Source: Methylobacter sp. S3L5C (GTDB lineage Bacteria; Pseudomonadota; Gammaproteobacteria; Methylococcales; Methylomonadaceae). From it: DNA of 64,000 nt. This document shows, piece after piece, positions 25,768-39,054 of the stretch. Under the pieces are notes generated by a model. The model searched no databases and was not told the DNA's origin. It worked only from the letters and a program-made list of their open reading frames with translations. Numbering within the stretch: position 1 is the stretch's first letter; each line of letters opens with the position of its first letter. The translations under genes were made by a program, and so were the position numbers. Location of the stretch: NCBI RefSeq assembly GCF_022788635.1, contig NZ_CP076024.1, positions 4,689,503-4,753,502 of the forward strand. The letters are read 5' to 3'.

Positions 25768-27588
25768 ATGTCTAGTCTTAAAAATTATTCCCGTCGTCGC
25801 TTCCTGACCCAATCTGGCTTAGGCTTGGTTGCTTTTGCGGGTATGCCGGGCTTTTTGCAAGCGATGGAAGGTATGCATGGCATGCCAAAATTAACACCCA
25901 ACAAAGCCTCACCCAATTTTAAACCGGATGTTGAATTCGATCTGTTTTGCCAATCCGGTTCTGTATCTATCCTGTCCGGCCAACAGACTCAGGTGCAACA
26001 ATACACGGCGTTGTTAAAAACAGGACCAAAAGAGACCCTCACAAACATAGCAGGATCTTATCTTGGGCCGTTAATCAGTTTACAAAAAGGCCAGAAAGTA
26101 CGCATTAATTTGTACAATAAACTGACCGAACCCACCGTTACCCATTGGCATGGCTTGCATGTCCCCGCTAATATGGATGGTCATCCCCAGTACACCATCG
26201 ATCCCGGTGAAATCCTGGTGTATGAATTTGAAGTGCTAAATCGGGCAGGTATGAATATTTACCACCCACATCCGCATGAAGCCACTGCCAAACAGGTTTA
26301 TCATGGCCTTGCTGGCGCATTATTCGTTCATGATGATGAAGAAGCAAAACTGGAATTACCTGCCGGCGAATACGAAATCCCGATAGTGATTCAGGATCGT
26401 CTCTTCGATGAACAAAACCAACTCATTTATGCGCGTAACATGCATGATCGGATGACAGGATTCTATGGCAATCGTATCCTGGTCAACGGTCGTCCGGATT
26501 TTCAGATTGATGTTGCCAGCCGCGCCTATCGCTTACGTATTTTAAACGGCTCAACAGCACGTATTTACAAACTGGGTTGGGATGATGGCACTCCCATCAC
26601 AGTAATTGGTGTTGATGGCGGCTTGTTGGAACAACCGGAAGTCAAACCCTACGTCATGCTGGCTCCCGGTGAGCGTTTAGACGTCTGGGCCGATTTTAGC
26701 GGTCGTAATGAAGGTTCGCAGTTAGTCATGCGCAGTCTGGATTTTTCAGGCGTATTACCAAAAATGGCAGGACGCATGGGTGGTATGATGCATGCCAATA
26801 CCTTGCCTGTCGGTAGTAATTATCCCATTTTTACTGCACGGATTACCAAAAAAGTCAGTGACAGCCCTAAACTGCCGTCACAGTTATCAAAAATCAACTG
26901 GCATCCAATTAGTGCGACGGCCAATCCTGACAAACCACTCCCCATCGGTATTTCTGAAGGCCCCATGGCCATGCTGCTTAATAGTCGCCCCTACAAGTTC
27001 GACGATATTCAAGACTTTGAACGCATCAAGGTTAACACTATCCAACTCATGGAAATTTTCCATGCGCACGGCGGTAGTGGCGGTCATGGTAAAGAATCCG
27101 CACCGGCAACTGAAGAACATGGCGGTATGGGTATGATGGGCGGTATGAAACATGGTAACGACGACCAGAAAGGTAGTGGCCAAAGCATGATGGGTATGGG
27201 TCACAAGGGTGGCATGGGGATGATGAGCGGCATGAAGCATGATGACGACGATCAGAAAAGCGGAGGTCAAGGCATGATGGGCATGGGCGGTGGTATGGGA
27301 GGTATGGGAGGTATGGGCATGATGATGACCATGGCGCATCCCATTCATCTACACGGACAACAGTTCCAAATTGTCAGTCGCAGTGTCAGTGCAGATAATG
27401 CGGCAGACTATGCCACCGTGCGTGATGGCTTCATCGAAAGCGGCCTGAAAGATACCGTACTGGTGATGCCGGGCGAGAAGGTTCGCATCATAAAACCCTT
27501 CCAGGATTTTAAAGGCTTGTTTATGTACCACTGCCACAATCTTGAACATGAAGATATGGGTATGATGCGTGACTTTTTGATTGAATAA
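25768..27588 (+). CDS. Multicopper oxidase with Met/His-rich insert (CueO/CopA-like)
   Basis: Periplasmic copper enzyme, 606 residues, Tat signal with RRRFLTQ at the start. Copper sites: HWHGLH (H126, H128), HPHPH (H166, H168), HPIHLHG (H524, H527, H529) and HCHNLEHEDMGMM (H588, C589, H590, H594, with axial M599), so T1, T2 and T3 centres are all complete. Residues ~435-522 are an insert right before the third His motif, made of Gly-Met-His-Lys-Asp runs; two ~28-residue halves are near repeats. Met-rich inserts in CueO bind Cu(I). Likely role: oxidising Cu(I) and protecting from copper, relevant to a copper-hungry methanotroph (inference). Confidence 0.92.
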   Translation: MSSLKNYSRRRFLTQSGLGLVAFAGMPGFLQAMEGMHGMPKLTPNKASPNFKPDVEFDLFCQSGSVSILSGQQTQVQQYTALLKTGPKETLTNIAGSYLGPLISLQKGQKVRINLYNKLTEPTVTHWHGLHVPANMDGHPQYTIDPGEILVYEFEVLNRAGMNIYHPHPHEATAKQVYHGLAGALFVHDDEEAKLELPAGEYEIPIVIQDRLFDEQNQLIYARNMHDRMTGFYGNRILVNGRPDFQIDVASRAYRLRILNGSTARIYKLGWDDGTPITVIGVDGGLLEQPEVKPYVMLAPGERLDVWADFSGRNEGSQLVMRSLDFSGVLPKMAGRMGGMMHANTLPVGSNYPIFTARITKKVSDSPKLPSQLSKINWHPISATANPDKPLPIGISEGPMAMLLNSRPYKFDDIQDFERIKVNTIQLMEIFHAHGGSGGHGKESAPATEEHGGMGMMGGMKHGNDDQKGSGQSMMGMGHKGGMGMMSGMKHDDDDQKSGGQGMMGMGGGMGGMGGMGMMMTMAHPIHLHGQQFQIVSRSVSADNAADYATVRDGFIESGLKDTVLVMPGEKVRIIKPFQDFKGLFMYHCHNLEHEDMGMMRDFLIE

Positions 27589-36965: not shown

Positions 36966-37643
36966 TTAAATTGACGATGCATAATATTTATCTACTTGCC
37001 ATTTCCGTGGGTTATTTTGAATATATTCAGCAATTTTTAAATAATCCTCTTCATTACGAATAACATGTTCAATAAAACGTGGCTGCCAGAAAAACTTTGT
37101 ATTAATCTTTCTCATTTCAAAAGTACATCTACCCTTATACCAGTTCATACAACGAGACAAATTTTCATGCAACATTGGGTTATTATTTCCCGTAACTCCG
37201 CCAATTTTTCTGACCGTAGAGACGCGATTTATCGCGTCTGAATTATCAACGCCATCTGGATTATAAGTACTATTTGAGACGCGATAAATCAGATCTGGAT
37301 TGTCAACGCCGTCTGGATTATCAGCACTATTTGAGACGCGATAAATCGCGTCTCTACTGTCAGAAAGGGGGTTATCAATATTTATTATTCCATGCACATG
37401 ATTCGGCATGACAATAAAATGGTCTAAAATGACAAATGGAAATTGTTTTTCCATTTCCAACCAATATTTATTTGCCAACTGCCCCAAATCCGACAAGTAC
37501 ATTTTTCCTTCTTTAACATTACCGAAAAAACAGATTTTATTGTCCGTACAAATGGTTACAAAATAAGGGGCATTCAAGCCATAATCCTAGTTTTTTAATC
37601 GGGCAGAAGAAATTCTATATTTGCCTTTATACCTATCAACCAT
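36966..37643 (-). pseudogene. RAYT (REP-associated Y1 transposase) with amber codon
   Basis: Family that processes REP palindromes with a catalytic Tyr and HUH site. From the natural start at 37643 the frame reads 18 codons, ending RLKN, then TAG at 37587-37589 where family members have a Tyr (RLKNYDY), and continues in frame. A downstream TTG at 37577 could restart it. HUH motif: PNHVHGI; a Tyr candidate lies in YLKIAEYIQNNP near the end. Between them sits a foreign ~50-residue insert encoded by the REP palindromes themselves, three times giving D(A/L)I(Y/N)RVS. Probably inactive, unless the amber is bypassed or the internal start used. Confidence 0.75.
37220..37354. repeat. REP-like palindromes inside the RAYT coding frame
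   Basis: AGACGCGATTTATCGCGTCT at 37220-37239 and GAGACGCGATAAATCGCGTC (continuing TC) at 37333-37354 are perfect palindromes, with a damaged third copy around 37274-37297. A 57-bp tandem unit links them (for example AACGCC at 37248 and 37305). The unit is exactly 19 codons, so the protein frame is kept. Confidence 0.8.
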
Positions 37644-37658
37644 AAATCAATCCCGGTG

Positions 37659-37778
37659 GAGACGCGATTTATCGCGTCTGGATTTATCGCGTCTAAATAA
37701 TACCTCATGCATTTTACAGATGTAGAAACACGATAAATAGAGACGCGATAAATAGAGAGACGCGATAAATCGCGTCTC
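37659..37778. repeat. REP-like palindrome cluster upstream of the RAYT gene
   Basis: The same GAGACGCGAT(T/A)(T/A)ATCGCGTCT palindrome occurs at 37659-37680 and 37757-37778, with partial half-sites (TTTATCGCGTCT near 37683, ACACGATAAATAGAGACG near 37729) between. It lies between the gnnB-like stop and the RAYT start, and matches the copies inside the RAYT gene. Confidence 0.8.
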
Positions 37779-37793
37779 TACTATCATAACCAA

Positions 37794-38999: not shown

Positions 39000-39054
39000 A
39001 CCTTTAACCTTTAACCTTTAACCTTTAACCTTTAACCTTTAACCTTTTAACCTT
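39000..39054. repeat. Heptamer tandem array (TTTAACC)n
   Basis: About seven head-to-tail copies of ACCTTTA/TTTAACC lie between the gnnA-like stop and the start of gnnB, with one copy carrying an extra T. A simple minisatellite; slipped-strand changes here would alter the spacing between the two genes but not a reading frame. Confidence 0.8.

Follow-up and report, generated by a model that had tools for sequence, protein, structure and literature searches.

In the window, a stretch of 64,000 nucleotides from Methylobacter sp. S3L5C, the gene of a RAYT (TnpA-REP, a Y1 transposase) carries in its own reading frame an insert derived from a REPIN, and related species carry such an insert at the same site. 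A mobile palindrome has thus long been resident in the gene for the enzyme presumed to move it, where it takes the form of a changeable protein loop. We consider it very probable that, in an ancestor of these species, the RAYT placed a REPIN in a permissive disordered linker of its own gene, that the insert was tolerated, inherited and resized, and that in the window it now sits in an enzyme that is probably decaying.

The gene lies on the minus strand between what we take, from their sequences, to be a DegT-like aminotransferase gene and an LpxB-like gene. Its full frame (36966..37643) holds 225 codons before the final stop, but codon 19 is itself a stop (37587..37589), so that the uninterrupted part, as given by the frame list and translation, is limited to 203 amino acids starting at TTG (36966..37577). 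This open part matches the Y1_Tnp domain PF01797 with 24 bits against a cut-off of 23, and contains the HUH motif (H-V-H of MPNHVH, 37392..37400) and the presumed catalytic Tyr codon of the YIQNNP motif (37023..37025), with the two H columns and the Y invariant across 12 sequences. A search of the genome with this RAYT gave one match at E ≤ 0.001. The stop codon falls within a conserved N-terminal motif at a place where six orthologues are open, which suggests that the enzyme has probably been lost or shortened in the window and has been decaying since the stop was gained.

The insert comprises 57 codons (37203..37373, minus strand) and lies in frame between the HUH and Tyr motifs, just where the first-pass annotation had located it. 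A REPIN consists of two REPs in inverted orientation with their GTAG feet outward, and the two perfect REPs inside the gene, both on the minus strand, are the ends of a single one: GAGACGCGATAAATCGCGTCTC-TAC at 37333..37357, with its outward foot reading GTAG on the minus strand, and GTAG-AGACGCGATTTATCGCGTCT at 37216..37239, with its outward foot reading CTAC on the minus strand. The former is identical in all seven orthologues and the latter in its outer 23 bases, and all seven inserts have the ends GTAG-AGACGCGAT...ATCGCGTCTCTAC, inverted and with outward GTAG feet. Sequence comparison reveals a third, decayed REP within the insert (37276..37296, minus strand). A tandem unit of 57 bp was detected by TRF in 2.4 copies (37219..37353, minus strand); the copies at 37219-37275 and 37276-37332 are 82% identical and, at 19 codons each, preserve the reading frame. 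Directly upstream of the RAYT start there is a REP cluster (37656..37781, minus strand) with perfect palindromes at 37660-37679 and 37757-37778 and partial copies between them. The earlier description of a palindrome lying twice upstream and at least twice inside the gene, within a frame-keeping 57-bp unit, is therefore borne out, with two perfect copies and one decayed copy inside and two perfect copies upstream.

The genome-wide mapping proposed in the first-pass annotation was carried out on the single contig of 4,815,745 bases and gave nine perfect REP sites (19 with at most two mismatches), while the REP pattern read backwards has no site in the genome. Four of the nine perfect sites lie within about 560 bp at the RAYT locus, for which the post-hoc binomial chance is about 2e-14. 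An origin of the palindromes by chance was rejected on the genome REP counts, the clustering at the locus and the comparison of surveyed linkers with codon shuffles given below. The association of REPs with this RAYT extends to other genomes: counting the exact pattern with in-gene copies included, and with several of the genomes incomplete, the seven bearers have 9 (the window genome, G000), 9 (G034), 15 (G028), 67 (G022), 27 (G055), 61 (G001) and 18 (G004) perfect sites, and among the 94 genomes without this RAYT, several of them likewise incomplete, 89 have none and five have 10, 4, 3, 1 and 1.

How old is the insert? A search of 101 genomes yielded close orthologues, 70-92% identical, in the six genomes named besides the window's own. 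The first-pass annotation proposed looking among such homologues for ones lacking the insert, but all seven copies, the window's included, carry it at a common site between HGIINID and GG[VI]TG, and since none of the orthologues of this clade proved to have an empty linker, the insertion event itself was not caught here. The RAYT frame is open in six of the seven, the window copy being the sole exception. The insert measures 51 amino acids in G034, 45 in G028, 42 in G022, 70 in G055, 51 in G001, 32 in G004 and 57 in the window. The shortest (locus L022, G004) is a single REPIN, made up of GTAG-REP, spacer and REP-CTAC, and its spacer is nearly the same as that of the REPIN that G004 and G028 have upstream of the gene. 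The longer inserts contain in addition the 57-bp units (window), shorter relatives of those units (G034 and G028) or 15-bp units (G022, G055 and G001). A pattern combining a REP half with the spacer, two mismatches being allowed, occurs in 10 places in the 35 genomes of the genus, a set to which G055, of another genus, does not belong; eight of these places are in the RAYT gene (G000, G034, G028, G022 and G004) and two just upstream of it (G028 and G004), and the G001 insert has a different spacer with no match to the pattern.

The anatomy of the insert and its common site are thus directly visible, and from them we infer that the RAYT was the agent of the insertion. Since two of the three phases in which a REP can be read are open and the linker is predicted to lie outside the fold as a loop, the protein would have stayed functional and the insert would have been inherited. 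The insert would then have grown and shrunk through its internal 57-bp and 15-bp repeats, a size change that the seven lengths document, and it may also have exchanged sequence with the REPIN just upstream, as suggested by a spacer that occurs at this gene alone.

The surroundings of the gene vary within the genus. The DegT-like gene is present in 33 of the 35 genomes, and among 30 such loci compared it is followed by the RAYT in four (G000, G034, G028 and G004), by an LpxB-like motif without a RAYT motif in 19 and by neither in six, one of which (G021) has by eye an LpxB-like start with a changed motif; the G022 locus was not parsed. The orthologues of G022 (L019) and G004 (L022) have the same 3' neighbour sequence and different 5' neighbours, owing either to rearrangement at the RAYT or to faulty assembly.

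The orthologous cores evolve under purifying selection, with dN/dS of 0.08-0.31 over the 21 pairs of the seven. An AlphaFold2 model of the G034 protein (L017), built from a 12-row alignment, has core block means of 74-96, mostly 81-96, and the insert, residues 93-153 between the HUH strand and the helix that follows it, falls below pLDDT 50 (block means 26-42), as do the first 23 residues. Among PDB structures the model best matches 4ER8, the RAYT of E. coli (E 1.1e-5), and then the IS608 and ISDra2 transposases; a sequence profile finds 4ER8 (E 1.9e-9) as its sole match with E below 0.4. Purifying selection on the core and the predicted disorder of the insert together indicate that the latter is an old, tolerated linker of variable length rather than a self-limiting event.

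The first-pass annotation had regarded the insert as the element inserting into, or expanding within, its own enzyme gene, possibly limiting itself by doing so. The location inside the gene and the expansion (32-70 amino acids) hold; a recent or self-limiting event is not supported. A recent insertion inactivating the enzyme would accord with the in-frame stop of the window copy and with the mere nine perfect REPs in its genome; however, the stop lies outside the insert, 72 codons ahead of it, G034 has an open frame and likewise only nine REPs, and the insert is present in six orthologues with open frames and conserved cores. We regard such an insertion as very improbable, and inactivation by the insert itself is rejected on the six open-frame orthologues under purifying selection.

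Equally, one might suppose that the insert is a native protein domain whose coding DNA is palindromic by happenstance, as its presence in all seven orthologues of the clade would allow. Its length nevertheless varies more than twofold and it is predicted to be disordered, on which grounds a native folded domain is rejected, and the same REP is found elsewhere in the genomes. A survey of the wider family also speaks against this supposition. It covered 110 loci, the best 80 of 460 confirmed in a contig scan together with those of the relatives, and kept 93, the other 17 being dropped for want of the three motifs in one open frame. With a palindrome taken as a stem of at least 8 in the linker, 77 of these 93 RAYT frames (best 80 of 460 plus relatives) have one and 16 have none, in a sample biased by a full-length ranking query that itself has linker palindromes and by the origin of some loci from one genome. 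The surveyed linkers carry different palindromes, and their GTAG-type feet stand in either of the two open reading phases (52 and 29 cases) and only once in the stop phase, again among the best 80 of 460 and the relatives. For these reasons we hold a native domain to be a most unlikely explanation. In the first-pass annotation, an insert carried by all homologous RAYT proteins as such a domain was to count against its reading; the insert is indeed common to the close clade, but the wider family has other palindromes or none, the latter in the 16 frames just mentioned and in three of the eight described next. This smaller sample, picked by the N-terminal core alone from 398 genomes, gave eight RAYTs besides the window's, of which five (one a truncated frame) have a linker palindrome.

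Within the survey of the best 80 of 460 and the relatives, the linkers hold 100 palindromes in 8,985 nt and the cores 17 in 38,505 nt (11.1 against 0.44 per kb, making the linker about 25 times denser), whereas 100 codon shuffles of the same linkers gave a mean of 1.85 palindromes and a maximum of 7. Without the seven loci of the window clade, the same sample has palindromes in 70 of 86 frames, with 86 in 7,752 nt of linker against 13 in 35,622 nt of core. In the same loci (best 80 of 460 plus relatives) the density is 2.9 per kb in the 300 bp before the core, 2.3 in the 300 bp after it and 0.47 in the farther flanks. The linker density may be a mere effect of REP-rich surroundings: it is about four times that of the 300-bp flanks, but these contain coding DNA, which lowers their density. 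The linker shares a 12-mer with its own flanks at 52 of the 93 loci, against 14 for the flanks of one random other locus and about 7 for core segments (best 80 of 460 plus relatives); when only the palindromes are considered, a 12-mer is common with the own flanks at 38 of 77 loci of this sample, so that, by this strict sequence test, about half of the linker palindromes are demonstrably cognate.

The nucleotide sequence of the REPs is conserved beyond what the protein would require. Although core dS between the two subclades is 0.81-1.26, all 14 codons lying wholly inside the two outer REPs of the insert are invariant as DNA in the seven orthologues, compared with 23 of the 53 core codons for invariant residues of like kinds (Fisher p 1.1e-4). 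Including the two codons at the REP edges, each of which varies in the base outside the REP, makes the count 14 of 16 (p 0.003). Such invariance of the outer REP arms at synonymous sites suggests either that this DNA still serves the enzyme or that it is recopied from other REPs. The former would fit an in-gene REPIN selected as a control element acting in DNA or RNA, where the RAYT binds its own gene or message and so limits its production, or where the hairpin limits translation or message stability. In favour of such control one may count, besides the invariant synonymous sites, the RNA fold of the window insert (-68.4 kcal/mol, z -8.8) and the surveyed linkers, with their palindromes in 77 of 93 and a density above that of the 300-bp flanks (best 80 of 460 plus relatives). 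Recopying from other REPs would, however, yield equal conservation, the flank density is lowered by the coding DNA counted in it, and a palindrome is dispensed with in 16 of the 93 frames (best 80 of 460 plus relatives) and in three of the eight, one of these frames being that of a close sister described below. We therefore think control by the in-gene REPIN rather unlikely as the explanation of its presence. The conservation nonetheless allows a possible role in self-control to be tested by recoding and, together with the sister pair, is what seems most worth following.

This pair consists of L128 (G180) and L129 (G204), from the same genus and identical at 728 of 765 aligned bases. They differ by 72 bp in the linker, with a REPIN in L128 and nothing in L129, and both frames are open. 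The gap has three placements, in one of which a CT stands before the GTAG foot and another closes the REPIN. Over its 26 letters the 3' in-gene REP of L128 is identical to the REP that precedes the gene in L129. The TnpA-REPs of E. coli and S. maltophilia (groups 2 and 3) are reported to cleave at CT beside the REP, and that of Marinomonas (group 3) at CT and CA, in the cited part of that study (PMC8266576); the enzymes shown there to cut at CT are purified proteins of groups 2 and 3 and not of subclass 2.4, to which the window RAYT is likened. The difference could be a loss rather than a gain of the REPIN, and the 2-bp repeat at its junction is also compatible with slippage. No further present/absent pairs were seen in the L128 family, for which six of 74 genomes matched. 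Among the titles and abstract openings listed by searches of open-access papers, none hints at such a present/absent pair or at in-gene REPs conserved at synonymous sites. The two sequences provide concrete material for testing REPIN movement. A broader proposition, that most enzymes across the RAYT family keep their own REP in the gene as a site of self-recognition or self-limitation, and that the enzyme continues to excise and reinsert the in-gene REPIN at CT dinucleotides, tying linker length and enzyme dose to REP activity, appears to us speculative and probably wrong.

In-gene REPs of this kind are already known. Quentin et al. 2018 (PMC6006769) describe, in the part of the article cited here, frame-keeping REPs in the tnpA-REP genes of subclass 2.4, generally between HuH and Y, and call them a unique feature of that subclass, where they predominate, with some also in subclass 2.8. 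The window RAYT agrees with subclass 2.4 (Bertels group 4; PMC6006769) in its motifs, with NHVH, WQ and YIQNNP all present as instances of NH[IFV]H, WQ and YIxNNP, and in having a highly variable insertion with in-frame REPs between the HuH strand and the helix after it (helix C); double-foot REPs outside the gene, as in that subclass, are clear here upstream of L017. Judged by its motifs and insertion, the window gene is an instance of the published phenomenon. It differs from the subclass as portrayed in the cited part (PMC6006769) in that a whole REPIN is inserted, with internal 57-bp and 15-bp expansions traced through seven orthologues, and in that the window gene has no 3' REP and carries a stop. 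According to the cited part of Nunvar et al. 2010 (PMC2817692), RAYTs are always flanked by two inverted REPs, forming a REPtron. Cognate REPs do occur elsewhere in the genome, with five further perfect sites here and as many as 67 in a relative, but in contrast to the REPtron (PMC2817692) the REPs of the window stand upstream and inside; a search for the exact 8-base half-site from the 3' end of the gene to the window start found none, and the window RAYT is hence not a canonical REPtron. REPs inside many genes were reported by Di Nocera et al. 2013 (PMC3733652), and these resemble the present ones as GTAG-tagged palindromes within coding regions, although in the cited part they concern many unrelated host genes rather than that of the REP-linked enzyme. 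Rickettsia palindromic elements (PMC3733652) are likewise palindromes in frame in protein genes, but they are CGTC-tagged instead of GTAG-tagged, and the CGTC repeats are described in that part as found without association with a transposase gene.

Several further repeats were observed along the way. In the same genus, a second group of RAYTs (L027, L030, L031 and L033) has another palindrome, GGGCGTATTGCATACGCCC, in frame in the linker; ahead of this palindrome L030 and L033 have a 66-bp stretch that L027 and L031 lack, and a 12-bp difference after it runs the opposite way. The five perfect palindromes of the window genome that lie off the RAYT locus are all within 3.43-3.69 Mb of its contig (G000:C1), and four of the five have the centre TA, not TT/AA. 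The palindrome AGACGCGATTAATCGCGTCT stands in frame (VETRLIAS) in two near-identical copies of a 533-residue frame (L003 and L005, near 3438267 and 3629156 of the same contig), and because this frame presumably resembles a Mu-like phage portal protein, the REP-like palindrome may be riding in two prophages. In the window itself, positions 27127-27317 hold 1.9 copies of an 87-bp tandem unit, with 81% matches, and after them a 9-bp repeat, and the heptamer ACCTTTA is repeated 7.7 times at 39000-39054, in an apparently intergenic position, as a possible slippage tract.
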